26,368 nucleotides of DNA from positions 1 through 26,368 of IMG/VR virus record IMGVR_UViG_3300048446_000974, one strand, 5' to 3'. This document shows, piece by piece, positions 3,307 to 26,368 of the stretch; the first letter of the stretch is position 1; every line of letters starts with the position of its first letter. Origin of the DNA: a virus. Both the position numbers and the translations under genes were made by a program. The notes beneath the pieces were generated by a model. That model saw only the letters and a list, made by a program, of their open reading frames with translations, was not told the origin of the DNA and searched no databases.

Positions 3307-3828
3307 TTAAGTATAGATGTTTCTTCTTGTGTCTCCAGGAAATCTTAAGCTGGATGGATCAAAATTATTACCAACGAAAGGACTAAGTATAGCACGAATA
3401 GCATTGGCATTGCCTATCTTATAATCCATGATAAGCTGATTGTATAAAGCACATGGTCCTTCATTTAGTATTACTTCATATCCTCTTAACGATCCTCCCA
3501 CAGAAAGTTGTGCTGGGCCTAAAGCTGCCCTAATGCCATCCATCGCGGCTTTCGTTCTAAGAGAACTTTGATCCAATATACAAGATGCCTTTAATGTGAC
3601 AAACCCAATGAAATCGAGATCTTTTTTTGCTAATGTTGTTGGGTCAGGACTAAGATCTGGATTGATAATATTAACAGTATATTTAGTAGTAAGATCTACT
3701 TGCTGTACAACATGCTGTGCTGCCACAACCAACAATTGCTGAATTCTTTCGTCACTATAAGTTGGGGTATCAGAAAGATCATTAATCCAAGACCTAACAA
3801 TTAAAGGTAATTCAATTTGCCACGACAT
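3307..3828 (-). CDS. Head-tail connector (adaptor) protein
   Basis: The protein has 173 residues, with AGGG upstream of the ATG. The N-terminus (IVRSWINDLSDTPTYSDER, then QLLVVAAQHV) is the helical signature of small gp6-like adaptor proteins that sit under the portal. Such proteins commonly read as a short helix, a D-x-x-x-x-P-x-Y-(S/T)-D turn and a second long helix. The C-terminal part is also helical (AIRAILSPFVG). It stands first in the group of neck candidates between here and the left edge. A 73-base AT-rich spacer separates it from the upstream glycosyltransferase gene. I am fairly confident of the adaptor assignment on pattern, without an alignment. Confidence 0.7.
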   Translation of the reverse strand: MSWQIELPLIVRSWINDLSDTPTYSDERIQQLLVVAAQHVVQQVDLTTKYTVNIINPDLSPDPTTLAKKDLDFIGFVTLKASCILDQSSLRTKAAMDGIRAALGPAQLSVGGSLRGYEVILNEGPCALYNQLIMDYKIGNANAIRAILSPFVGNNFDPSSLRFPGDTRRNIYT

Positions 3829-3901
3829 AATAAAGGCCCTTTTTAGTTTTTGGCTTAAGTAAGGTATATCATTAAATACACTAATTTTTACTTTAATTAA
3901 C

Positions 3902-10759: not shown

Positions 10760-11830
10760 CTATTCATCATTAAATATCATCAACGAATGATAATTCCCAC
10801 ATCCTACATTTACCCATACTCCATCATACCCAGAGATCTGAACAATATTAGTATCGTAACTACTACTAGTAGTTCTACCCAATTGAGAATAAGAATTACC
10901 TCCCCAAGAGTATAGTTTACCAACAGAATCAACCAACAAAACATGGTCACTACCACATTCTAATTTCGTCCAAGCTTGACTATCATCAATTTGAACCAAA
11001 CGATTATGAGTAGGATAACTTGTATAATAAAATAATCCATGAGTTCCGATAGAGGTGTCGTCATTTGGAGCTGTATTACTATCTTTAAAGGTATAGCCCC
11101 ATAAAGAACCATTTTCTTTTATTGCTAATAAAAAATCTGTACCAATAGCTAAATCTGTATAGTTTAAAACACCATCACTATTTAATACTGTACTAGAAGA
11201 GTTTTGCAATGTAGGATTGTAATAGGTAGTACCATTAAAATTTTCTGGAGTAAAATCATAGGTTCCTCTAACAACCAAAGAATTAGATTTGGCTACAGCA
11301 GCTAGAGTTGGACCAGCAGATACCAATGTTGCATTATCAAAATCCGATATGTGTGTAGGACTATCAACCTTTGATCCTGTACTGTCTAATTGCTTATATG
11401 TGTTAGAACCACAGCCATATACCTTACCTGTATTGTTTGTGTCTGCAAACAAACTGTAAGAAGAAGAAGCCGATATTTGATTAATAATCGTAGAACCAGG
11501 TATAGTAACACCAGAAGGATTGGAAATACTAGTAACTCCACTAATACCACATTGACCATCTGTATTCCTGCCCCAAGCATAAACCTCTCCATCACTATTC
11601 AAAGCTAGAGAATGATAATCTCCACAAGCAACTTCTGTCCAATTGTTACCAGAGCCTATTTGCACAGGAAGCACTCTGGTAATATTCGTTCCATCTCCTA
11701 CTTGATAATTGTCATTTAATCCCCAGCCATACAATTCCCCCGAAGCATTAATAATTAAAGAATGACCATAGCCTCCTGCTGATTTAGATATAGGTATAGA
11801 ACCTAAACCACTTACTGCACTTAACAACAT
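10760..11830 (-). CDS. RCC1-like beta-propeller protein
   Basis: The protein has 356 residues, with AAGGAA eight bases before the ATG. It carries repeated RCC1 signatures: GGYGHSLIINASGELYGWG near the start, then CGDYHSLALNSDGEVYAWG, GKVYGCGSN, a weaker KENGSLWGY, CGSDHVLLVDSVGKLYSWGGN, and a final CGNYHSLMIF. The pattern gly-x-x-H-S-L, then D-G-x-(L/V)-Y-x-W-G is diagnostic. At about 50 residues per blade, the length suits six to seven blades, and the two ends could close the ring. In eukaryotes RCC1 is a nucleotide-exchange factor, but bacterial and phage propellers of this type usually serve as binding surfaces. A virion adhesin or decoration role is inferred from the fibre neighbours. Confidence 0.8.
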   Translation of the reverse strand: MLLSAVSGLGSIPISKSAGGYGHSLIINASGELYGWGLNDNYQVGDGTNITRVLPVQIGSGNNWTEVACGDYHSLALNSDGEVYAWGRNTDGQCGISGVTSISNPSGVTIPGSTIINQISASSSYSLFADTNNTGKVYGCGSNTYKQLDSTGSKVDSPTHISDFDNATLVSAGPTLAAVAKSNSLVVRGTYDFTPENFNGTTYYNPTLQNSSSTVLNSDGVLNYTDLAIGTDFLLAIKENGSLWGYTFKDSNTAPNDDTSIGTHGLFYYTSYPTHNRLVQIDDSQAWTKLECGSDHVLLVDSVGKLYSWGGNSYSQLGRTTSSSYDTNIVQISGYDGVWVNVGCGNYHSLMIFNDE

Positions 11831-12930: not shown

Positions 12931-13152
12931 TTATGGAGTACCACCATCAACATTTAAATTTAAGTTATCTATAAAAGTTGATAATCCAACAATATCACTA
13001 GCAAATACTGTACTACCAGCAAAACCAGGATTAATTTCTATAATAGAAGGTTCAACATTTTGTAATTCTATTATGTTTTCCACATTCTCTGTAGAAGTTT
13101 GAATCTCTACTGAATGAGAGGTATTAATAATCTCTAAAGAAACATTACTCAT
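12931..13152 (-). CDS. Small fibre-related protein
   Basis: The protein has 73 residues. Its ATG shares one base with the stop of the upstream BppU-like gene, so translation is probably coupled. It begins MSNVSLEI and ends in a stretch I associate with fibre N-termini in marine phages (AGSTVFASDIVGLSTFIDNL). It has no cysteines and no membrane segment. The pairing with a BppU-like gene mirrors the pair at 1829-3290. A small adaptor between virion and fibre is a reasonable guess. It could also be the remnant N-terminus of a longer fibre that lost its shaft. Confidence 0.55.
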   Translation of the reverse strand: MSNVSLEIINTSHSVEIQTSTENVENIIELQNVEPSIIEINPGFAGSTVFASDIVGLSTFIDNLNLNVDGGTP

Positions 13153-13556
13153 TATTCATTGCACTCCAGAGCATTAGAGGACTTACTGTATCTCTTAGAT
13201 ATGCTAACAGTACCATAAATTAATCTAGTGGTAAATCTACCACCATCTTGATAATGGTCTTCATCAGACTGTAATTCAAGATCGTATTTGGCTGTACTAA
13301 AATCAAAACTATTAGTTGTAGAAGCAGGAAATCTTAAAGTAATTTTACCTAAACTGCCTTCTATCTCAAAGCTATAATTTTCTTTATCCGTATTATCAGA
13401 AACAAATGTTTGTGTAGTATTCGAACTAGTTTTCCAAACAAATCTGGCACACCAATCTGTTATGTCGATGGCATTACCATCTGAATCCTTGTAAATTATA
13501 GATATATTGAATGAAGACCCCTGCTCTATATTAAAATCATATTGGCTAGCTGACAT
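13152..13556 (-). CDS. BppU-like N-terminal module protein
   Basis: The protein has 134 residues and consists only of the module that also forms residues 1-130 of the P-domain protein at 2067-3290. Corresponding elements are an N-terminal (D/E)-x-GS-x-F strand, then (K/N)D-x-DG-x-x-ID-(I/L)-T, a GKITLRFPAS strand equal to GEITIKFLAS, and FDFSTAKYDLEL equal to FDYTSATYDLDV. In lactococcal phages the BppU N-terminal region anchors receptor-binding proteins on the baseplate, so an anchor role is likely here. It is the first gene after the terminator downstream of the capsid gene and should be the start of a separate expression unit. Confidence 0.7.
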   Translation of the reverse strand: MSASQYDFNIEQGSSFNISIIYKDSDGNAIDITDWCARFVWKTSSNTTQTFVSDNTDKENYSFEIEGSLGKITLRFPASTTNSFDFSTAKYDLELQSDEDHYQDGGRFTTRLIYGTVSISKRYSKSSNALECNE

Positions 13557-13591: not shown

Positions 13592-13626
13592 CTTCTATAT
13601 AGATACACCTTTCCTGCTAATGTATC

Positions 13627-15227: not shown

Positions 15228-16097
15228 TTATTTTTTGCCTATTCTACTACGAACAAAGTCAACAAGTGCGGCTCTAGTAGACTCTTCTTTAGATTCTACT
15301 TCACCACCAACGGTAATAGCTGAGTTTTCTTCGACTTCAACATTTTCCAAAATAGATGCATCAACATCAGTTTCAGTCTTTGCTTCTTCAAGTTCGTCTG
15401 ATTCTGAAGCTTTGCCTTCTTCTTCTTTCTTCTTCTTCTTCTCCAAAGCTTCTTTAAGAGCTGGTGGCATTCCTGCCTCAGCTTCTACTTCAGCTTCTAC
15501 CTCAGCTTCTACCTCTTCAGCAACAGCTTCTGGAGCTGGTACTAAAGACGAAAAAACGCTGGTCATCGCCACAAATGTTTCGTCATCCATAGATTCAAAT
15601 TGGTCAACCAATTCTGCAGCTTTAACCGAATCAACACCTGACTCTTCTAGGGCTGCCTTTCTTGCCATCTTCTTTTCTTTCTTTTTCATTTCTTCTTCTG
15701 CTTCTTTATATCCAGCAATCACTTCGTTTGCTGCAGTGAGTTCCTGCTCGACAGCTTCTTTGGCTTCTTCGAGAGATTTGACAGCAGCTTCAGCTTCAGT
15801 CTTGGCAGTTTCAAGATCAGCAATTTTAGCGCTAGCTTCTTCTTGAGCTGTGCTTAATTCAGTGATTTGATTCTGTAGTTCTGAAATACTCTTTTGAGTT
15901 ACTTCATCAGCAGCTACAAGCTGTTCTACCTGTTCTTGTTTATTACTCATTGCAACCTCGTGTTCTTGTTTAAGGGTATTAATAGTTTCATTTAAAGTGT
16001 TAATTGTTTCGTTAAGGGTACTAGCCTGAGATGCCAAATCATGACAATCTGTATTAGGTTGTTCTGATGCTGCTGCTGACATTTCTTCTTTATTCAT
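15228..16097 (-). CDS. Scaffold protein from internal start (nested in protease gene)
   Basis: Residue 283 of the fusion protein is a Met whose ATG lies at 16097-16095. It is preceded by GGAG at 16110-16107, a spacing of nine bases, better than many starts in this window. Translation from here would give a 289-residue protein holding the whole coiled coil and acidic tail, without the protease. This is the same layout as lambda C and Nu3, where scaffold is made in excess from an in-frame internal start. A second in-frame Met follows five residues later. The inference is good but needs protein data. Confidence 0.5.
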   Translation of the reverse strand: MNKEEMSAAASEQPNTDCHDLASQASTLNETINTLNETINTLKQEHEVAMSNKQEQVEQLVAADEVTQKSISELQNQITELSTAQEEASAKIADLETAKTEAEAAVKSLEEAKEAVEQELTAANEVIAGYKEAEEEMKKKEKKMARKAALEESGVDSVKAAELVDQFESMDDETFVAMTSVFSSLVPAPEAVAEEVEAEVEAEVEAEAGMPPALKEALEKKKKKEEEGKASESDELEEAKTETDVDASILENVEVEENSAITVGGEVESKEESTRAALVDFVRSRIGKK

Positions 16098-16943
16098 TTC
16101 TTCTGTCTCCGTTATAATGGATTGCTGTGTATTAGATACACCTGAATCGTTAAATTCGTCATTTTTTTTCTCCAAAATAGTCTCTCCGTATTGCTGAAGT
16201 TTATCCATCAGCGTATTCCGATTAAATATAATACTATCTTCGTTGGCTGGTTTTGCAACAAAACCTTTACCACTAAAGGTAATATTACGCAATACTCTAC
16301 CAATTTTATAGTTGTCTTTTTCTCCTAGACCACCATATACTTTCAGGTGTTTTGTTAAGTGTGATGTTTCTTCATTTCTTTCTATAACTGAAAATGAACC
16401 ATTTGATTTGTCTTCTAAACCATAATCAAAACCTTTGAAAAAACATTCCATACTAACATATTTCTCTCCAGCTTCAATTTCGGCAATAAGCTTTTCAGCT
16501 CTATCCCTAAGTTCTGGATCACTAAATCCTCTGTAAATAACAGAACCAGTTAAAATATGATATTTATTTGGTAAATTGCTAATTTCAGTATTAGCATCTA
16601 TTAAAATGCCATCATCCGTAATAGGCCAATTTGATGTAATATGACCCACTATCAACTTCTCATCATGCTCAAGATTAGTTGGCTTATGTTCTGGAGTTGC
16701 TCTAGCATTCCAGACTTCTACTTTATCGAATACATCATCATTTTTATTCCACGAAGAACTAACTAAAATAGATTGAACATAATACAGATCTTCATCTGCT
16801 AAAGATGCTACGCTTTTAGAAAGGTCCTTTTTTATACTACTTTCTTTGTCACATGGCTCTACTAAAGCAGTATAGTTTATAGACGCATTGGAGAGCATCT
16901 TATGCTCTATACCATCTTGTTTTTCTTGTTCAAAAATAATCAT
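15228..16943 (-). CDS. Prohead protease fused to scaffold
   Basis: The protein has 571 residues with GGAG upstream of the ATG. The N-terminal ~240 residues look like a prohead protease: LVSSSWNKNDDVFDK, a His in NLEHDEKLIVGHI (His93) and a Ser in KYVSMECFF (Ser164). These are the candidate catalytic pair of the phage protease superfamily that removes scaffold and capsid N-termini. The typical closing segment follows (GRVLRNITFSGKGFVAKPA). From about residue 303 to 430 the chain is a long heptad-rich coiled coil, with a perfect repeat of TLNETIN. Then comes an acidic region with VEAEVEAEVEAEA and a Lys-rich end, typical of a scaffold. Fusion of protease and scaffold is known in lambda-like and other phages. 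Inside lies a likely second start at 16097. Confidence 0.82.
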   Translation of the reverse strand: MIIFEQEKQDGIEHKMLSNASINYTALVEPCDKESSIKKDLSKSVASLADEDLYYVQSILVSSSWNKNDDVFDKVEVWNARATPEHKPTNLEHDEKLIVGHITSNWPITDDGILIDANTEISNLPNKYHILTGSVIYRGFSDPELRDRAEKLIAEIEAGEKYVSMECFFKGFDYGLEDKSNGSFSVIERNEETSHLTKHLKVYGGLGEKDNYKIGRVLRNITFSGKGFVAKPANEDSIIFNRNTLMDKLQQYGETILEKKNDEFNDSGVSNTQQSIITETEEMNKEEMSAAASEQPNTDCHDLASQASTLNETINTLNETINTLKQEHEVAMSNKQEQVEQLVAADEVTQKSISELQNQITELSTAQEEASAKIADLETAKTEAEAAVKSLEEAKEAVEQELTAANEVIAGYKEAEEEMKKKEKKMARKAALEESGVDSVKAAELVDQFESMDDETFVAMTSVFSSLVPAPEAVAEEVEAEVEAEVEAEAGMPPALKEALEKKKKKEEEGKASESDELEEAKTETDVDASILENVEVEENSAITVGGEVESKEESTRAALVDFVRSRIGKK

Positions 16944-16965: not shown

Positions 16966-19134
16966 TTATTTATTATACACCATAGAATAGAAAGAAGATT
17001 TAGCTTGTTTAATTTCGTTCGCCGTTAAATCTCTACCAAAATCAGATTTGATCTGCTTTAAATAATAATTGTACTTATTAACATACTCAGAAGAACCTAA
17101 ACCGGAATTAACGATATCTACTGTAATTTCTTCAAACGGTTCAATATTGAGCAGGATATTTGTCTTAAGATCGTCTAAATAGTTATGCTGTGCGCTAGAT
17201 AAAGATCTCAAATTTTTCTTATTAAAATACTCTAATATCATTGGGTTTATTATATCACTTATCTGTTCTTGAGCTGTTGCTGCCCATATAGATAATTTAG
17301 CTCCTGTCTGAGGGGAGAATCTTTTTTCTTTTCTGGGTTTTTGATCCTTGGATAATTTGGGTCTACCCTCCTGCGGTTGCCCTGGCAACGACTCCGAAGA
17401 CGGATCGTTGGCCAACTTCGTTGTTTTATTTGGCAGGCTGTCTTGCTTAATTTCTAGCAAGGTTTTTTCGTTGTCCTTCTTTGGCTCTAACTCCAGACCT
17501 ACTTCGCTTGGACTCACAGTCCCAGACTGCAAGGCTATCTTTTTCAATCCTTCTTCTGGCTCTGGGTTATGATAAGGACTAGACTTGCGTACCATTCTTT
17601 TTGACTTTCTAGCTCTCTGTTCACTGTTAAGCCTACTCTTTTCCATATCATGATCAAAACCAAACTTACGTTGTAGTAATTCATCTGATATTAGATTTCT
17701 ATCAGCTAACTGTATAAGAAGTGATTTCTCTGCTTCTTCATTCGATAAGTCCATTCTGTCAAATTCAATTCTTGCTGGATCTCTAAAATTCATGGCTTTT
17801 TGAACTTTTTTAATTTCTTCGCTCCAAAATGTTGTCAGAACATCTCTACCATATTGTAGTCGTTGTGTTAAGGTTTTTAGACTTATAAAGTTATTAGTCG
17901 TACCAGCTGCACCAAATGTACCAGTAAGTGTCGGAGGAATACCAAGGCCAGCATACACAGCATTTAAATGAGGTACATATTTACCTTCACCTAAAAACTG
18001 ATGTACATTAGTATTAGACTCCAGTAATTCTATATCTGGACCCCAAACTAAATCCATAGTACCTCCACCAACATTGTTTCCTAGTATTTGCGCTAGTTTC
18101 GAAGTAGCTGCTTTAGTTGGAGCAATCTTGTGTTCGAGACTACCAAGCTTGAAAATTCTAATATTAGAAATAGCTCCATCGAGAGCTGCCATGTCTGCTA
18201 ATTTTAGTTTTTCTATAACTGTAATATCATCCATAATAGAATATATCATTGGAAAAGCCCAAGGATGCCAATCGTCTTTTTTATAGTGATGAACCATAAC
18301 CTTATCAGGATCAAGAGCAAATGGTTTTTTCTCTTTAGCTGCATCTAAAATAGCTTGTGGTAGATTTGAAATTACTTGTTTCTCAGCATCAGTTTTTGGA
18401 TTATTGATTAATTTTCTTAACTTTGTAGGAATTCTAAGCTCATATCTTTTTTGCTGTACGAAAGATGATAATGCCCCACCAGAAGCATCTACATATACAG
18501 GATCAATAAAAGTATAAATCCAAGGTATTTCTCTTTTCTCTACATTAGGTTCTGTAACATTAATTTGTAAATCTGGAGATGCAGTCGATCTGTACATTTT
18601 CTCAGCTGCTTTTAAACTCAGCTTACCTGTTTGTCTATGTACTACTACATTGCCCGTCTTGTATAGATTATTTAAAAATCTTTCACTTCTGTCTTTACCT
18701 GATACCTTAGAAAACCAATGGTTGTAAAATCTTTCTATTCTTTTATTCTTGTGTACCAATCTAATACCTTGAACTCCAAAGTCCCCCATTAAATCAATAA
18801 CGTTTTTTACTAGTCCAACCTTTTGATATATATCTTCAGCCCTAGCTATAATTGGCTTAATACCATTTCTAGGTACTGCTTCTTCTGGTCTAAAATAATC
18901 ATAATCAGATCTAGTTAATCCAGGTCTACCGGATGTATTTGTGTCTAAGCCAGAATAATCTAAACTATATCTTCTCGTACCAGCTTTAGAAACACCAACA
19001 TATTCCTCTAGAGATTCAGAAGACTCATTTAAAGCCTTTTGCTTGCTTTCTACATCATCTCCCCATGTTATATAAGCTTTTTGCTCTTCAGGTACTGAAT
19101 TTTTAATATTTTCGTTTGAATATTCTTTTGACAT
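16966..19134 (-). CDS. Portal protein with extended C-terminal tail
   Basis: The protein has 722 residues, longer than many portals. The body (residues about 80-500) has portal traits: YFRPEEAVPR, a helix with VKNVIDLMGDFGVQGIR, then LYKTGNVVVHRQTGK, a mid-chain KVMVHHYKKDDWHPWAFPM, and MDDITVIEKLKLADMAALD leading into the clip and stem. After about residue 505 a basic, Pro- and Ser-rich linker (KSKRMVRKSSPYHNPEPEEG) leads to a helical end domain (about 640-722, with NLRSLSSAQHNYLDDLKTNIL) that may lie inside the head. No clear ribosome binding site precedes the ATG. It sits in normal order between large terminase and protease, and forms the twelve-membered ring for DNA entry. Confidence 0.82.
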   Translation of the reverse strand: MSKEYSNENIKNSVPEEQKAYITWGDDVESKQKALNESSESLEEYVGVSKAGTRRYSLDYSGLDTNTSGRPGLTRSDYDYFRPEEAVPRNGIKPIIARAEDIYQKVGLVKNVIDLMGDFGVQGIRLVHKNKRIERFYNHWFSKVSGKDRSERFLNNLYKTGNVVVHRQTGKLSLKAAEKMYRSTASPDLQINVTEPNVEKREIPWIYTFIDPVYVDASGGALSSFVQQKRYELRIPTKLRKLINNPKTDAEKQVISNLPQAILDAAKEKKPFALDPDKVMVHHYKKDDWHPWAFPMIYSIMDDITVIEKLKLADMAALDGAISNIRIFKLGSLEHKIAPTKAATSKLAQILGNNVGGGTMDLVWGPDIELLESNTNVHQFLGEGKYVPHLNAVYAGLGIPPTLTGTFGAAGTTNNFISLKTLTQRLQYGRDVLTTFWSEEIKKVQKAMNFRDPARIEFDRMDLSNEEAEKSLLIQLADRNLISDELLQRKFGFDHDMEKSRLNSEQRARKSKRMVRKSSPYHNPEPEEGLKKIALQSGTVSPSEVGLELEPKKDNEKTLLEIKQDSLPNKTTKLANDPSSESLPGQPQEGRPKLSKDQKPRKEKRFSPQTGAKLSIWAATAQEQISDIINPMILEYFNKKNLRSLSSAQHNYLDDLKTNILLNIEPFEEITVDIVNSGLGSSEYVNKYNYYLKQIKSDFGRDLTANEIKQAKSSFYSMVYNK

Positions 19135-19173: not shown

Positions 19174-19185
19174 TTTTATACTACA

Positions 19186-21222
19186 CTAATTTCGGTAAAT
19201 ACCCTTATAAATATCCTGAGATTCATCATTAACAGCGGAAGTAAACCAAGACGGTCCTTTATATAAGTCTCCGTCTGATTTTACCATATCTTTTCTATTT
19301 CCTCCTACAACATCGAAAGTAACATTAGGACCCAAAGTATTCCTAATCTGTCTAGCCAACATATTTGCTATAATTAATGAGCTGTATCTATCTTTCCTTA
19401 ATCTTCCCTTCTTGCCATTTTGTAATTTTACTTCAGGAGTATCCCATCTGTCTCTAGCGTTAGGTCCGGTACTGGTTTGTGTCATAACTATGGTAGTTAG
19501 TTCATCTTTTAATTCTTCTATCTCTAAAATACATTCGGGCAAACTATCATATAATTTGTCTAAATCATCTTCTAGAATATCTTTGTTTTCTTGATCCATA
19601 GCGAGACCCAGTGTCAAATTATCAAATCTAGGGAATAGTAAAGTTTTATCTTCTAGGTCTTTTCTTAAACCGTGATTAGCTTGGGATGTCCAATCCGCTC
19701 TGGCGAATTGAACCATTTCTAAAATATGTAAGCCAGCTTGAAAATCAGTATCCTTAGCCTTTCCATCTCCTATTGTAGGCCATATACAAAGTTCCCCTTC
19801 TTTTAATCGAGAAGGATCATGTAGCGCTTCTTCGATAGCTATACCACCTCCTTGAGCATCCATTCCGATTACGGCTGGAGGAAAAGTTTTCATTAAATCT
19901 CTAATTTTTCTAGCACAAAATCCATAAAAATCATGCTCATCTACTAATCCTGTTTTCTGTCTATCTTTAAAATTAGTTCTGTTTGTAGTCCAACAATAAA
20001 CTATTCTAGCGTGATCTGGATGCATTTCTAATACTACTAAACTGAAATTATCTTTTTCCGAAGCTGGGTCAATACCATAAACATAATGCTTATTTGGATC
20101 CCCTACTGTTCTAGCATCAAAAACTATTTGCTTATCTGCAATCTTGACTATGTTCTGATCTGAAGCTACACAACTTTCTATTAAACTTCTTTTAAAGAAT
20201 CCTTGACTGTCATTTACAAAACAAGCAGCATACTCCATATTGTATATACCACTATGAATTGTAGCTTTGGCTCTAGCTACCTGTTTATCATCCATAAACC
20301 CTTTGGGTATTAATTCATAAGGTACTCTAATAACAGAATAATCTTGCCAGTTAAAATTATCAGGAACTTCACCCTTAAAAACATCTTGTAATTTAATAGG
20401 ATCTCCTTTACTTTCCACAATAGACTTATATCTTCTCCAATAGTCTGCAAAATGTTTAAAACCATAATCTGCTGTACCAGATATAATTGCTTGGTTGCCC
20501 TTCTTTTTACTTAATGTTTCTAGTTCTTCAGACCATAATCCAGCTTCTATCATAGCCTGCTTCTTTGCTTCTTCTTTAACATTCTGTATCGGACTTGCAC
20601 TTACAGCGGCAAAACCTGCAACAACAGTTTCATAAATGTCTGGAGACATAGAAGCAAATTCGTCAGCGATAATTATATGAGCCCTGAGACCTCTAATTTT
20701 GCTCCCGTCACCCATAGGAATAGCGATAGTCCAACTATCACCTAATCTCAAAGTACATCTATCCACATCTCTTCTAGGACCATCTTCATTACCGCTAAAG
20801 ATACTTCTTAAGATTGGACTATTCCTCCAAATATTTTCCATGTATTCAAACAGAATTTTACTTTGTCTAAAGCCTGCACCAACTACAACAATCTTAGTAC
20901 CAGGAACAAATGCACATTTTAATATGCAATATAAACTCATTAGAAAAGATTTACCAAAGCCACGACTAGCTATAAACATAGGAAAGGGTCGATGCCAAAA
21001 CTCTTGCAATATAACCATCTGTATAGGATGTAATTCGATACCGAAAAGTAATTTACAAGTAGCTCCTATATATTTAGTTTCTCTCATAATACGCATCAAA
21101 TGAGCATCAGGATGTTCTATATCCTCTTTAGACCTATTAACCATAACGTTCTGCTCAATAGGTAAACTATCTATATTTCCTAGTTCTAGCCAAGCATTAT
21201 CAAACGCATTAGAGATACTCAT
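19186..21222 (-). CDS. Terminase large subunit
   Basis: The protein has 678 residues. The ATPase half shows a Walker A (ASRGFGKS, residues 85-92), an adenine-side GIELHPIQ (61-68), a Walker B with catalytic Glu (IIIADE, 183-188), preceded by GDGSKIRGLRA, and the coupling motif SGTADYG (249-255). The nuclease half shows an Asp in YGIDPASEKDNF (Asp386) and another in VIGMDAQGGG (Asp456), as expected for the RNase H-like fold of large terminases. The end (RKDRYSSLIIANMLAR) is a conserved helix in such proteins. It powers DNA packaging through the portal encoded next to it and cuts the concatemer. The ATG lacks a clear ribosome binding site, and the upstream gene ends five bases before it, so translation is probably coupled. 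Confidence 0.93.
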   Translation of the reverse strand: MSISNAFDNAWLELGNIDSLPIEQNVMVNRSKEDIEHPDAHLMRIMRETKYIGATCKLLFGIELHPIQMVILQEFWHRPFPMFIASRGFGKSFLMSLYCILKCAFVPGTKIVVVGAGFRQSKILFEYMENIWRNSPILRSIFSGNEDGPRRDVDRCTLRLGDSWTIAIPMGDGSKIRGLRAHIIIADEFASMSPDIYETVVAGFAAVSASPIQNVKEEAKKQAMIEAGLWSEELETLSKKKGNQAIISGTADYGFKHFADYWRRYKSIVESKGDPIKLQDVFKGEVPDNFNWQDYSVIRVPYELIPKGFMDDKQVARAKATIHSGIYNMEYAACFVNDSQGFFKRSLIESCVASDQNIVKIADKQIVFDARTVGDPNKHYVYGIDPASEKDNFSLVVLEMHPDHARIVYCWTTNRTNFKDRQKTGLVDEHDFYGFCARKIRDLMKTFPPAVIGMDAQGGGIAIEEALHDPSRLKEGELCIWPTIGDGKAKDTDFQAGLHILEMVQFARADWTSQANHGLRKDLEDKTLLFPRFDNLTLGLAMDQENKDILEDDLDKLYDSLPECILEIEELKDELTTIVMTQTSTGPNARDRWDTPEVKLQNGKKGRLRKDRYSSLIIANMLARQIRNTLGPNVTFDVVGGNRKDMVKSDGDLYKGPSWFTSAVNDESQDIYKGIYRN

Positions 21223-22273: not shown

Positions 22274-22542
22274 TTTTTATCATTATTATTAGCTATAATT
22301 TTTTTAAATACATGTTGATAATATTCTTCTGAACCAGATATCATCTTATGATGTAAATAACATAAAGTAATACCGTTGTCTACATTATATCTCAAACCAG
22401 GATTATCTGCCCATTTCATAATATGGTGGGCATTTAACTTCTTGCGAGATTCACATCCAGGCCATTGACATTTAAATTTATCTCTTGAATATACTGATTT
22501 TCTCCATCTCTTATATGTAGGATCACTAAAATTACGCCTCAT
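22270..22542 (-). CDS. HNH endonuclease
   Basis: The protein has 90 residues when it starts at the ATG at 22542, which has AAGAGG nine bases upstream. An in-frame GTG two codons earlier is less likely. The HNH core is clear: Cys25 and Cys30 (KCQWPGCE), AHH (38-40) with His40 as general base, Asn56 in VDNGITLC, Cys61 and His64-His65. The Cys set would hold structural zinc. A small HNH protein next to the large terminase is a recurring feature of many phages, where it stimulates cos cleavage or packaging (for example HK97 gp74). That role fits here better than a homing endonuclease. It overlaps the end of gmd by eleven bases. Confidence 0.85.
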   Translation of the reverse strand: MRRNFSDPTYKRWRKSVYSRDKFKCQWPGCESRKKLNAHHIMKWADNPGLRYNVDNGITLCYLHHKMISGSEEYYQHVFKKIIANNNDKK

Positions 22543-23530
22543 GAACACCTACCTCTTTTAATTCATATTCAAGCATATCTGTAACAAGACCTTTGAAATC
22601 GTAATTGGGTTTCCAACCCAATTGCTCTCTCGCTTTTGTACTTTTCCCTAATAGATAATCTACTTCAGCGGGTCTGTACAAATTTGAATCTATTTCCACA
22701 TAATCTTTATAATCTAAATTAACATAATTAAAGCAAGCTTTTAAGAAGTCTAATACCGAATGTGTTTGTCCCATCGAAATCACGAAATCATCCGGAGTAT
22801 CTTGTTGTAGCATTAAATACATTGCTTCTACATAATCTTTGGCGTGACCCCAATCTCTACAAGCTGATAAATTACCTAGCTTCAATGTTTCTTTAGTAAG
22901 ACCTCCAACTAATTCTCCGATGTATTTTGTTATTTTTTTAGTTACAAAAGTATCACATCTTTTGGGACTTTCATGATTAAATAAAATACCACAACAACCA
23001 AATATTTGATATGAATCTCTGTATAACTGCACTAGTCTGTGACTAGCCAATTTTGCTACCCCATAGGGACTTTGTGGTAATAGTTGTGTATTTTCATCTT
23101 GATACTTAACACCATTTTCATCTTCATCATAGTTTCTGCCAAACATTTCACTAGTACTGGCTTGATAAAACTTTGTTTCTTTGGAGCAATGTCTAATAGC
23201 TTCTAAGATGTTTACGACTCCTATAGTATTAATTTCTATAGTTGTTGTAGGTTGATCAAAACTAGTTTTCACATGACTCTGAGCTGCTAAATTATAAAAC
23301 TCATCTGGTCTATACTTATCCACAATCGATAACACGCTAGCTGGATCTGTTAAGTCAAATTCTAATAAATTAAAATTTGGATTATTAATTATATGTTTAA
23401 TTCTTTCTATATTATTTGTGCTAGATCTTCTTTTTAAACCTATTACAGTGTAATCTAAATCTAGTAAATAATCACAAAGATAACTACCATCCTGTCCTGT
23501 TACCCCGGTGATAACTGCTGTCTTATTCAT
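22532..23530 (-). CDS. gmd: GDP-mannose 4,6-dehydratase
   Basis: The protein has 332 residues, near the normal family length. It is an extended short-chain dehydrogenase that converts GDP-D-mannose to GDP-4-keto-6-deoxy-D-mannose using bound NADP. The Rossmann motif is GVTGQDG (Gly9, 12, 15). The active site shows Thr126 in STSEMFG, Tyr156 and Lys160 in SPYGVAK, and the family segment FNHESPKRCDTFVTKK (usually RRGETFVT). The chain looks intact. It is coupled to the upstream gene by an ATGA overlap and to the HNH gene by an eleven-base overlap, so it is firmly built into the packaging operon, not a late insertion at its edge. The next enzyme of the pathway, fcl, lies 2 kb away on the other strand. 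Confidence 0.93.
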   Translation of the reverse strand: MNKTAVITGVTGQDGSYLCDYLLDLDYTVIGLKRRSSTNNIERIKHIINNPNFNLLEFDLTDPASVLSIVDKYRPDEFYNLAAQSHVKTSFDQPTTTIEINTIGVVNILEAIRHCSKETKFYQASTSEMFGRNYDEDENGVKYQDENTQLLPQSPYGVAKLASHRLVQLYRDSYQIFGCCGILFNHESPKRCDTFVTKKITKYIGELVGGLTKETLKLGNLSACRDWGHAKDYVEAMYLMLQQDTPDDFVISMGQTHSVLDFLKACFNYVNLDYKDYVEIDSNLYRPAEVDYLLGKSTKAREQLGWKPNYDFKGLVTDMLEYELKEVGVHEA

Positions 23531-24345
23531 TCCTTAACCTCTGTTTCTGGTAATAAAAAAGGTTTGTCCACGGTTTCGTCTGCAAAAGTATGATATTCTG
23601 AAAGCTTGTCCTTAAATTTCTCAGAAGCCATATTAAGAATCTCCATTTCTCTGCCTGTCTTTTCTCTTATCTCTTCATCCTCAAGCATTCTAATTAATCC
23701 TACCCAACTACTTTTACCATCTTCTATTCTTTTAATTCTTTGTTCACGAGTTGCTTTGAGATCTTTACTAATCTTTTGTTGTTCATTAAGTAATTTGGTA
23801 TATTCATTAGTATAATTAGCAATACTATTTCTAGCAAAACTTAATTGGGTTTCCAAGTTTGCTAACCTTGCGGTATCTCTATCTGATTCTGGTAAAGAAT
23901 ATTCGAAGTCTACTTGTTTTTGTAGTTTTTCTGTTTCTGCTATATGTCTTTTTCTTTCCTTCATGGATCTATTAATTAAAATATCAATAGTAATAAATTG
24001 CTTTATCTGCAATTCTTCTGCTGGTAAAACATCTTCACGGAACTGCTTGACTAAGCCTATCCATGTATCTTCAAAATACTGTAGTTCCCCAGTAGCAGTA
24101 TCAAATTGTTTTTGTATCTCATTCCAAAATGTCTTACAGTGCAACTTTTGTTTTAATGTAAAATCTATATCCTTTTCATCATCGTCTATGTATAGATTAT
24201 TTTTCTCTATGTATTTTTTAAGGGTAGAAGAGTTTCTATTTAAATCATTAGATATCTGATTTATGGAAAGTTTTTGTATATTATCCTTGATATATTGCTC
24301 TTCTTCTAAACTTAACTGTCCTCTTTTTTTAGGTATTTTAGTCAT
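23527..24345 (-). CDS. Helix-turn-helix and coiled-coil protein, small terminase candidate
   Basis: The protein has 272 residues. Residues 8-52 form a helix-turn-helix (LSLEEEQYIKDNIQKL, then INQISNDLNRNSSTLKKYI). The rest is almost wholly helical with long heptad-like stretches (about 125-215: INRSMKERKRHIAETEKLQKQ without its first residue, then ETQLSFARNSIANY). An N-terminal DNA-binding fold with a helical oligomerisation core is the design of small terminase subunits, and no other gene here fills that role. The distance from the large terminase (four genes) is larger than usual, so a transcription factor remains possible. The helix-turn-helix resembles that of the 73-residue protein at 25223-25444. 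Confidence 0.6.
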   Translation of the reverse strand: MTKIPKKRGQLSLEEEQYIKDNIQKLSINQISNDLNRNSSTLKKYIEKNNLYIDDDEKDIDFTLKQKLHCKTFWNEIQKQFDTATGELQYFEDTWIGLVKQFREDVLPAEELQIKQFITIDILINRSMKERKRHIAETEKLQKQVDFEYSLPESDRDTARLANLETQLSFARNSIANYTNEYTKLLNEQQKISKDLKATREQRIKRIEDGKSSWVGLIRMLEDEEIREKTGREMEILNMASEKFKDKLSEYHTFADETVDKPFLLPETEVKE

Positions 24346-25021
24346 TTTTATCTTTGATCTCTTTGATAATAAATGTTATATGTTTTTTCAATTTTTCTAA
24401 CTGTTGCTTATTAAGTTTAAGACCGTGTTTAAGTTTTAAATAACTTTCTCTATATTCACACTGAACATTAATATCCAAAAAATCTATAATTTCTTTATTC
24501 TGCATCAATATAAAAAAATTATCCTTAGAATCTAATAAAGATTCGTCAGGTATATAAGAAGGCTGCACAATATTTTTCTTTACACTGTTTCTTTTAGACC
24601 AAGCAGCATGTAAGGGACATTCTTCTTTATCTGTAAACTTAGCACACTGATTAGTAGACTTTAAACAATTTTTATCATAAAACTCACAGGAAAGACAAGG
24701 ATTGTCTGGTCTCTGATAATTATTCCTTTTATAATTAAATAAACGATTTCTTACATGCGTCCATAAAAAATTCTCCAAAGGTCTCTTGTGATCATACTTC
24801 TCAAGACCTTCTATTGCAAATATAGCTGCCTGTTGCTTCATGTCTTCTATATCATGATAAGCGAATCTGAATTTGTGGGCTAATCTTTTAGAAATATTCT
24901 CTAATACTTGTAAAAATTCATCTTCTGGAACTTCTAGCTTCTTAGGTTTAGTTTTCTTTGAGATTTTCGATTTCTTCTTCGTTATCTTCTTGTTTTGCTT
25001 CTTTTGTATTTTTTTCTTCAT
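24338..25021 (-). CDS. Sigma-70 region 2-like factor with Cys cluster
   Basis: The protein has 227 residues. The first 29 are very rich in Lys (KKKIQKKQNKKITKKK). Residues about 36-104 look like sigma region 2: a helix with ISKRLAHKFRF, then DIEDMKQQAAIFAIEGLEKY, and FLWTHVRNRLFNYKR, the core-binding and -10-reading helices. Directly after come Cys109, 112, 119, 126 and 135 with His138, which suggests a zinc-binding insert where region 3 would be. The end (YLKLKHGLKLNKQQLEKLKK) could be a degenerate region 4. Like T4 gp55 it may switch host RNA polymerase to late phage promoters (inference). The start overlaps the upstream gene by 74 bases, and no strong ribosome binding site is seen. Confidence 0.72.
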   Translation of the reverse strand: MKKKIQKKQNKKITKKKSKISKKTKPKKLEVPEDEFLQVLENISKRLAHKFRFAYHDIEDMKQQAAIFAIEGLEKYDHKRPLENFLWTHVRNRLFNYKRNNYQRPDNPCLSCEFYDKNCLKSTNQCAKFTDKEECPLHAAWSKRNSVKKNIVQPSYIPDESLLDSKDNFFILMQNKEIIDFLDINVQCEYRESYLKLKHGLKLNKQQLEKLKKHITFIIKEIKDKND

Positions 25022-25145
25022 TAAGTATATTTGCTATGCTTTTACCATCTGGAATTTGTAATTCTTTTTCTATAGCTAACATATCTTCCTCAGACTCTTT
25101 TACTTTAAGTACTGAAGAAGCCATAATATATTTTTTATTGTCCAT
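24948..25145 (-). CDS. Small acidic protein, first gene of leftward operon
   Basis: The protein has 65 residues if it starts at the ATG at 25145. A TTG 15 bases upstream is in frame, but it lies only about seven bases from the expected transcription start, so I prefer the ATG. The C-terminal third is strongly charged (NEEKNTKEAKQEDNEEEIENL) and probably helical or disordered. The middle (LAIEKELQIPDGKSIANIL) looks like a short amphipathic helix. It overlaps the sigma-like gene by 74 bases in another frame, so the lysine-rich start of that protein and the acidic end of this one share DNA. No family is recognised. A partner of the sigma-like factor is conceivable. Confidence 0.5.
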   Translation of the reverse strand: MDNKKYIMASSVLKVKESEEDMLAIEKELQIPDGKSIANILNEEKNTKEAKQEDNEEEIENLKEN

Positions 25146-25164
25146 ATTTGTTGCTTTCAATTGG

Positions 25165-25194
25165 TTGATTTCTATTATAGTAACGTATTAAAAT
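25165..25194 (+). promoter_or_regulatory. Rightward promoter overlapping the leftward one
   Basis: TTGATT (25165-25170) and TAAAAT (25189-25194) are spaced by 18 bases. The -10 matches five of six and the -35 four of six consensus positions. It would start transcription near 25201, about 20 bases before the ATG at 25223, which has GGA upstream. It overlaps the leftward promoter, so the two may compete. Confidence 0.5.
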
Positions 25195-25204
25195 AAATTG
25201 TCAA
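25174..25204 (-). promoter_or_regulatory. Leftward consensus sigma-70 promoter
   Basis: On the minus strand, a perfect TTGACA (25204-25199) and a perfect TATAAT (25179-25174) are spaced by 19 bases, slightly longer than optimal. Transcription would start near 25167, giving a leader of about 22 bases before the ATG at 25145. It heads the packaging and head operon and should be used by unmodified host polymerase. Confidence 0.75.
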
Positions 25205-25222: not shown

Positions 25223-25444
25223 ATGAGAAATTACAAAAGGTGGACACCTAATGAAATGTCTTACATCAAAGACAATTATGTTATTTCGTCCGATGAAAAG
25301 ATAGCTTCAGAGCTAAGCAAAATCACAGGAGAAAATATCACCACTGCAATGATTAGAAGACAAAGACGTAAGCTGAAAATAGCCAAAAGCAGAGGAAGGC
25401 CCAAAAAGACTAATGAAATTAATCTAACATTAGATACACAATAA
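25223..25444 (+). CDS. Small helix-turn-helix DNA-binding protein
   Basis: The protein has 73 residues, with AGGA before the ATG. It looks like a Myb/SANT-like or homeodomain-like helical trio: WTPNEMSYIKDNY, then EKIASELSKITG and a recognition helix ITTAMIRRQRRKLKI, followed by a basic AT-hook-like SRGRPKKTN. The SRGRPKK motif binds AT-rich minor grooves in eukaryotic proteins. The first helix resembles that of the coiled-coil protein at 23527-24345 (EEEQYIKDN). Lying directly at the divergent promoters, it is a good candidate for regulator of one or both. It is followed three bases later by fcl. Confidence 0.65.
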   Translation: MRNYKRWTPNEMSYIKDNYVISSDEKIASELSKITGENITTAMIRRQRRKLKIAKSRGRPKKTNEINLTLDTQ

Positions 25445-25447
25445 CTT

Positions 25448-26368
25448 ATGAAAATATTAATTACTGGGGCTAAAGGCTTCTTGGGATCCTTTTTGACTCC
25501 TAAAGTAAAAGATAAATACGGTGAAAATAATACATTTATATTCGGTAGCTCTGAATATGACCTTAGGGATAAAGGCCAAATTAATTCACTATTTGAAGAT
25601 GTTAAGCCAGATAAGGTCGTTCATTTAGCTGCGGTTGTAGGTGGCATTGGAGCCAATAGGAAAAACCCAGGTAAATTCTTTTATGAAAACATGCTCATGG
25701 GTTTAAACTTGGTAGAAGCTTGTAGGGAGCATCAAGTCGAAAAAGTAGTCAATATCGGAACAGTATGTTCATACCCTAAAATTTTGCCTGTACCATTCAA
25801 GGAACAGGACTTTTGGAATGGATATCCAGAAGAAACCAATGCTCCTTATGGTATTGCTAAAAAGGCTATTATTGTTATGCTACAATCATATTACCAACAA
25901 TATGGCCTAAATAGCACAACACTACTACCTTGTAATCTTTATGGTCCTGGAGACAATTTTGATTTAGAATCTAGTCATGTGATTCCTGCTATGATTCGCA
26001 AAATACATGATTGTCAAAGTTCAGGAGAAAAAGTAACATTCTGGGGTGATGGAAGTCCGACCAGAGAATTTCTATATGTAGATGATGCTGCTGATGCTAT
26101 TATGGCCGCTTTAGAGAAGGATACAGGCCCTGATCCTATCAATATAGGTTCTGGTATAGAAATTAAAATGTGGACCTTAGCGATGCATTTAAAGGACCTG
26201 ATGGAATATAATGATGATATTATATGGAACACAGATATGCCCAACGGACAGCCAAGAAGATGGTTGGATACTAGTAAAAGTAAAATACTAGAATGGAAAT
26301 CAAAAACCAATTTGGCACAAGGTCTCACAGAAACTATAAAATGGTATAAAAATAATTATGATATTTAA
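25448..26368 (+). CDS. fcl: GDP-L-fucose synthase
   Basis: The protein has 306 residues and ends with a stop codon at the last base of the window, so it is complete. It is the bifunctional epimerase and reductase that turns GDP-4-keto-6-deoxymannose into GDP-L-fucose with NADPH. Seen in the sequence are TGAKGFLG (Gly7, 10, 13), AAVVGGIGAN (61-70), typical for the family, Tyr134 and Lys138 in PYGIAKK, and Cys107 and His177, which fall at the places of the catalytic Cys and His of the Escherichia coli enzyme. NLYGPGDNFDLESSHVIPA is a strong family marker. It is the second gene after the rightward promoter and takes the product of gmd on the other strand. Confidence 0.93.
   Translation: MKILITGAKGFLGSFLTPKVKDKYGENNTFIFGSSEYDLRDKGQINSLFEDVKPDKVVHLAAVVGGIGANRKNPGKFFYENMLMGLNLVEACREHQVEKVVNIGTVCSYPKILPVPFKEQDFWNGYPEETNAPYGIAKKAIIVMLQSYYQQYGLNSTTLLPCNLYGPGDNFDLESSHVIPAMIRKIHDCQSSGEKVTFWGDGSPTREFLYVDDAADAIMAALEKDTGPDPINIGSGIEIKMWTLAMHLKDLMEYNDDIIWNTDMPNGQPRRWLDTSKSKILEWKSKTNLAQGLTETIKWYKNNYDI

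Follow-up and report, generated by a model that had tools for sequence, protein, structure and literature searches.

A candidate late-gene sigma factor with an invariant Cys4 module in large uncultured phages

We propose that a small sigma-like protein of uncultured phages acts as their late-gene sigma factor, which would bind the host core RNA polymerase and read promoters that consist of a single element, (A/G)GTGTATTAA, and lack a -35 element. From sequence comparison and structure prediction, we put the probability of this reading at about 0.72. The protein (227 aa; 24338-25021, minus strand) is encoded in what we call the window, the whole stretch of DNA that was analysed, which is an entire virus record in IMG/VR of 26,368 bases. 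The proposal is built on the observations that the protein has homology to sigma region 2, that four cysteines following this region are invariant, that the gene stands at the head of the structural arm of the phage genomes, and that these genomes carry two promoter classes that divide by arm.

Results

Region 2 of the sigma-like protein

The reading frame, which had been given in a preliminary description of the window, was confirmed exactly, including its strand and its length of 227 aa, and the identification of its product draws on the open reading frame together with profile matches to Sigma70_r2 and PHROG_1740. Region 2 (residues 45-101; 24719-24889, minus strand) is delimited by the Pfam match, by fold matches, and by its conservation in 109/109 of the distinct relatives on which our counts of conserved residues are based. 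The window protein itself scores barely above the cut-off of Pfam Sigma70_r2 (24.4 bits, cut-off 24, residues 45-101). In Pfam profile searches, the same family was matched by all 75 of the diverse family members and was found on 18 out of 18 large contigs (20.6-28.4 bits), 17 of which have a single match and one of which has an additional weak match. The AlphaFold2 model has helices at residues 33-50, 58-74, and 82-101, followed by an ill-defined cysteine region, and its top fold matches among solved structures are sigma domain 2 (8b3z: Z 9.2, 74 residues, 2.1 Å). A sequence search of solved structures returned chance matches only.

Within region 2, residues D60, Q63, and Q64 and the helix at 82-101 are conserved in all 109 relatives. 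In our alignment, the three residues correspond to D403, Q406, and E407 of sigma-70, which are known contacts with the core polymerase. Residues 82-105 are the most conserved stretch of the family and correspond to the helix with which sigma factors read the -10 element. By the sequence of its region 2, the protein is a member of the sigma-70 superfamily. The preliminary description had recognized a sigma region 2, and this is upheld by the Sigma70_r2 matches throughout the family and by the match to the fold of sigma domain 2; the region 2 helices are present in both the profile and the predicted fold, and the assignment is not refuted.

The cysteine module and the C-terminal tail

The cysteine cluster that had been described straight after region 2 indeed begins right behind region 2.4. 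It had been read as a site of five cysteines and one histidine, of which four cysteines hold up and the other two residues do not. Cysteines C109, C112, C126, and C135 are present in 109/109 relatives and form a Cys4 module with the spacing C109-x2-C112-x13-C126-x8-C135 (residues 109-135; 24617-24697, minus strand), whereas position 119 is cysteine in just 53/109 relatives, and position 138 is tyrosine in 99/109 and histidine in 1/109, so that C119 and His138 fall outside the conserved site. The loop between C112 and C126 varies in length and is shorter in some relatives; together with the four invariant cysteines, this makes a metal-ligand pattern. Judging from this pattern, the four cysteines are able to hold one metal, and the module probably does hold a metal, namely zinc. 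AlphaFold2 models the cysteine region with low confidence. Following the module, W141, R144, N145, K148, N150, and I151 are also invariant among the 109 relatives. Among journal articles that were largely open access, we found no report of a phage sigma factor with a Cys4 module.

The protein ends in predicted C-terminal helices (residues 166-227; 24341-24526, minus strand) without a match to a known domain, which AlphaFold2 places at 166-185, 188-198, and 205-226; the tail ends are variable across relatives. A helical end without a normal region 4 had been noted before, and our searches agree with this: the Pfam and NCBIfam matches of the window protein at E<=10 include none to region 4, and neither do the 25 families listed across 75 family members. 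Profile and fold searches with the tail alone gave neither a region 4 nor any other clear match, the absence of a fold match being weak evidence. A stretch of the tail, R-E-x-Y-L-K-L-K-x-G, resembles region 4.1 as judged by eye only. In one branch, a conserved C-terminal NEDN was considered as a feature and dismissed, as it is probably a mere overlap with the start codon of the next gene.

Distribution and gene neighborhood

Relatives of the protein were found at 472 loci at least in IMG/VR, on contigs of uncultured viruses that reach 244 kb in length. All 18 of the large contigs tested carry the gene. Searches of GenBank phages (50,697 records) with three queries, namely the window protein, a consensus sequence, and a distantly related member, yielded nothing credible (best E 3-9). 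Over 70% of its length, the terminase shares ~26% identity with the best cultured relatives, and by terminase sequence the phages that carry the sigma-like gene are not close to any cultured phage. A relative of 243,821 bases encodes a DnaB helicase, and its DNA polymerase III alpha is split. The remote terminase and the split polymerase support the earlier suggestion that the phage lies outside the T4 group. A search for the T4 capsid protein gp23 gave no match and carries little weight, since the control genomes gave none either. No sliding clamp was detected with DnaN, PCNA_C, and gp45-slide_C in searches that can miss diverged clamps and on contigs that may be fragments; the gp45 search is weak, as it rose above its cut-off in no control. 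For jumbo phages, Iyer et al. 2021 (PMC7824862) report sigma factors in group 2, whose members bear gp23, and none in group 3, to which the Pol III type belongs. Two of the contigs (L161 and L162) sit in bins of Alphaproteobacteria LLD_269 and Flavobacteriales NAT55, which may be infected hosts or binning errors.

On the five contigs that we mapped (G001, G002, G016, G021, and G022; 223-244 kb), the sigma gene comes first in an arm of ~70-90 kb that runs in one direction and contains the terminase, tail, and other structural genes. The order in the window is acidic ORF, sigma, HTH protein, GDP-mannose dehydratase, HNH nuclease, ERCC4 nuclease, an unassigned gene, and the terminase large subunit of the structural arm (19186-21222, minus strand; PHROG_2, E 1.9e-24). 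The small acidic ORF (24948-25154, minus strand) overlaps the start of sigma. Its conserved core, S-V/I-L-x-V-K-A-S-G ... G-K-S-I-A-x-L-L, is found upstream of sigma in the relatives examined, where the ORF has about 50-70 aa; it matches no family, and its product could be a partner or regulator of sigma. The HTH protein directly 3' of sigma (23527-24345, minus strand) overlaps the sigma stop codon and matches HTH_38 weakly, and its relative on a 244 kb contig matches PHROG_323, a D5-like regulator, at 2.6e-5.

Other genes nearby include a divergent small HTH-like ORF (25223-25444, plus strand) that also matches PHROG_323 (D5-like regulator), though weakly. A nucleotide-sugar pair flanks the sigma operon, consisting of a GDP-mannose 4,6-dehydratase (22532-23530, minus strand) and a GDP-L-fucose synthase-like enzyme (25448-26368, plus strand), and an RCC1-like repeat protein (10760-11830, minus strand) is encoded amid the tail genes.

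Two promoter classes

A candidate early promoter precedes the sigma operon (25174-25204, minus strand), with TTGACA at 25204-25199 and either TACTAT at 25182-25177 (N16) or TATAAT at 25179-25174 (N19). The gene had been described as second behind a consensus promoter. Its position stands, with TTGACA before the first two genes of the operon, but the promoter of the window is imperfect, being either TTGACA-N16-TACTAT or TTGACA-N19-TATAAT. Among 107 upstream regions anchored on the acidic ORF, TTGACA was present in 83, against 5.0 expected in shuffles. Over the whole window, promoter-like matches are no commoner than in shuffles (54 vs 56.8), and the weight of the sigma-operon TTGACA therefore lies in its conservation, which fits early synthesis by the host polymerase. 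Across the five genomes, the sigma-70-like pattern TTGACA-N17-TANNNT is frequent upstream of genes that lie outside the structural arm. None of the 65 TTGACN-N17-TA sites lies in the structural arm, and 63 of them have a T at -7.

Outside the structural arm, many small genes have promoters of this class with CGATAA or CGATAC midway along the 17-base spacer, perhaps as an operator or to shape the DNA. We rejected CGATAA as a separate, perhaps late, motif; it sits in the spacers of TTGACA promoters, and the genes concerned lie outside the structural arm.

The genes of the structural arm carry GGTGTATTAA without a -35 element. De novo discovery in 58 structural-arm regions returned gGTGTATtaa, which is present in 48% of them; the complement was recovered from the reverse strand, and shuffled sequences produced no similar result. 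The hexamer GTGTAW occurs in 23/64 structural-arm regions compared with 63/531 other regions (p-value=4e-6). In those other regions, too, it favors the sense strand (63 sense and 24 antisense regions), so that it is not restricted to late genes. At loci kept out of the discovery, the late motif was found in 87/149 regions on the sense strand and in one on the antisense strand, a result that reflects conservation and not independent trials, because most of these sites belong to one orthologous gap after the terminase. Inside the late-arm genes themselves, the hexamer has no strand bias (86 vs 109). In the structural arm, the motif lies ~50 nt 5' of the start codon, and no conserved -35 accompanies it; several sites directly follow intrinsic terminators, and A/T-rich sequence comes after the motif. 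A T at -7 is present in 7/24 late-motif sites compared with 63/65 in the early class (p-value=6e-11). The early -10 elements of sigma-carrying phages often begin with GTGTA too, so the classes share letters.

There are three exact late-motif sites in the window, all on the minus strand and all candidate late promoters with the hexamer GTGTAT. One of these (AGGTGTATCTATATAG; 13603-13608) is located just past an intrinsic terminator and before the gene at 13152-13556, another (TAGTGTATTTAATG; 3876-3881) precedes the gene at 3307-3828, and the last (ATGGTGTATAATAAAT; 16975-16980) lies ~37 nt before the gene at 15228-16943. A variant site, GTGTAG (TTAGTGTAGTATAAAA; 19181-19186, minus strand), falls at the stop codon of the terminase and before the gene at 16966-19134; in relatives, this gap contains GTGTAW.

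The idea that GTGTAT is the upstream element of a fixed TATAAT was discarded, as there is no such TATAAT in the five genomes and the held-out peaks are orthologous copies of one gap. In about 20 relatives (e.g. L162, L177-L185, and L238), GTGTAW lies in the spacer of the sigma-operon promoter, 10 bases after the first T of TTGAC, as if early and late promoters overlapped; this arrangement is absent in the window.

Discussion

The preliminary description had suggested that the protein could switch on the late genes of a phage that does not belong to the T4 group. Our findings support this suggestion: sigma heads the structural arm, the TTGACA of its operon is conserved, and the genes of the arm carry a motif without a -35 element. 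Core binding, the reading of GTGTATTAA by the phage sigma, the bound metal, and the roles of the Cys4 module and the tail are inferred. The link between sigma and motif is correlative; it draws on the two occurring together and on the motif deviating from the sigma-70 pattern. Early in infection, the host RNA polymerase with a host sigma would read the TTGACA promoter, giving rise to the acidic protein, sigma, and the HTH protein. The phage sigma would then bind the clamp of the host core polymerase via region 2, which would also read and melt the -10-like element and direct the polymerase to (A/G)GTGTATTAA, ~50 bases before the structural start codons. The missing -35 element fits the apparent lack of a region 4 helix-turn-helix, and the beta flap is a possible contact of the helical tail.

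A full sigma factor reads an extended -10 with its region 3.0. The GTG of GTG-TAT occupies this extended -10 place, and the Cys4 module occupies the place of region 3.0 in the chain. The module may read the GTG upstream of TAT or brace the open complex, and a structural role is just as possible as a role in reading. We consider it doubtful that all parts of a stronger version apply, in which a zinc module replaces region 3 and reads GTG, and a protein of 227 aa opens late promoters without region 4, a -35 element, or a sliding clamp.

The late motif could alternatively be read by the downstream HTH protein or a host factor. In one such scenario, the main sigma of the host reads GTGTATTAA as an extended -10 together with a phage activator, for example the adjacent HTH protein, and the sigma-like protein acts elsewhere. 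The HTH gene is co-transcribed with sigma and has a relative that resembles a D5-like regulator family, the GTG preceding TAT looks like an extended -10, and the early promoters of sigma-carrying phages frequently contain GTGTA. Yet the T at -7 that is nearly fixed in early promoters (63/65) is lost in late ones (7/24), a loss that the main sigma would not be expected to tolerate, and a fixed TATAAT elsewhere was found in none of the five genomes. We regard this scenario as unlikely. It is also conceivable, though very unlikely, that the protein is a sigma mimic or appropriator, which would place its region 2 on the clamp helices and, together with its Cys4 module, dislodge or reshape the host holoenzyme but would not choose late promoters itself. 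Phages are well known to appropriate polymerase, our searches detected no region 4, and neither the tail nor the Cys4 module matches anything known. However, conservation in the family peaks in the -10-reading helix (82-105), and a protein that merely blocked the polymerase would have no need of it.

A further possibility is that GTGTATTAA is no promoter but an RNA signal in the leaders of structural genes, for example for processing or translation. The distance of ~50 nt to the start codons and the strand bias would also fit such a signal. Nevertheless, several sites come right after intrinsic terminators, where transcription must restart, and the A/T-rich sequence after the motif is like a melting region. 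We consider an RNA signal highly improbable.

Relation to known sigma factors

By profile comparison, the sigma-like protein is nearest to PHROG_1740 (phage RNA polymerase sigma factors), which is matched by 75 out of 75 family members (best E 8e-7; residues 1-106 of the window protein). The match ends before the Cys4 module, and this family, with a profile of 567 positions, was compared by profile alone. Region 2 also aligns without gaps to the ECF factor RpoE of E. coli (50 residues, 26%), and a sigma70-ECF superfamily model was matched far under its cut-off (22 vs 42.9 bits). ECF factors, however, use a -35 element and have a region 4 joined to region 2 by a short linker; no region 4 was found for the sigma-like protein.

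The T4 gp55 family (PHROG_234) is similar in that both proteins are small, consist of region 2 with no region 4 seen, and go with a late promoter of one core element. The T4 late promoter is TATAAATA, compared with GTGTATTAA here, and both are single -10-like elements without a -35. In local hhalign comparisons, region 2 of gp55 from Ochrobactrum phage OC aligned with the sigma-like protein (33% over 52 residues, E 7e-6), whereas two other gp55 proteins gave no alignment. PHROG_234 was weakly matched by 7 out of 75 members (best 0.0051), and the fold search also retrieved the cryo-EM structure of T4 gp55 (7d7c; Z 8.1, 105 residues, 7.0 Å). The clamp gp45 is the partner of gp55, whereas no sliding clamp was detected in the sigma-carrying phages, with a weak gp45 control. 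As one gp55 aligns and two do not, PHROG_234 matches weakly, and no clamp was found, we do not file the protein as a gp55. The two also differ behind region 2, where the sigma-like protein has the Cys4 module; the element of gp55 at this place is a helix-loop-helix, which contributes to holding the template strand (PMC7892883).

The best explanation overall is that the sigma-like protein works like gp55, with an added Cys4 module and a one-core-element promoter. The analysis gives large phages that are unmatched in the GenBank phage records searched a transcription program with a candidate switch and both promoter classes, and GTGTATTAA would help to separate early from late genes in metagenomic contigs. 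It also provides a case, open to direct testing, in which a putative metal module takes the position of sigma region 3. Beside T4 gp55, the protein would be a second example of how a region 2 sigma factor can bring about late transcription, possibly without a clamp.
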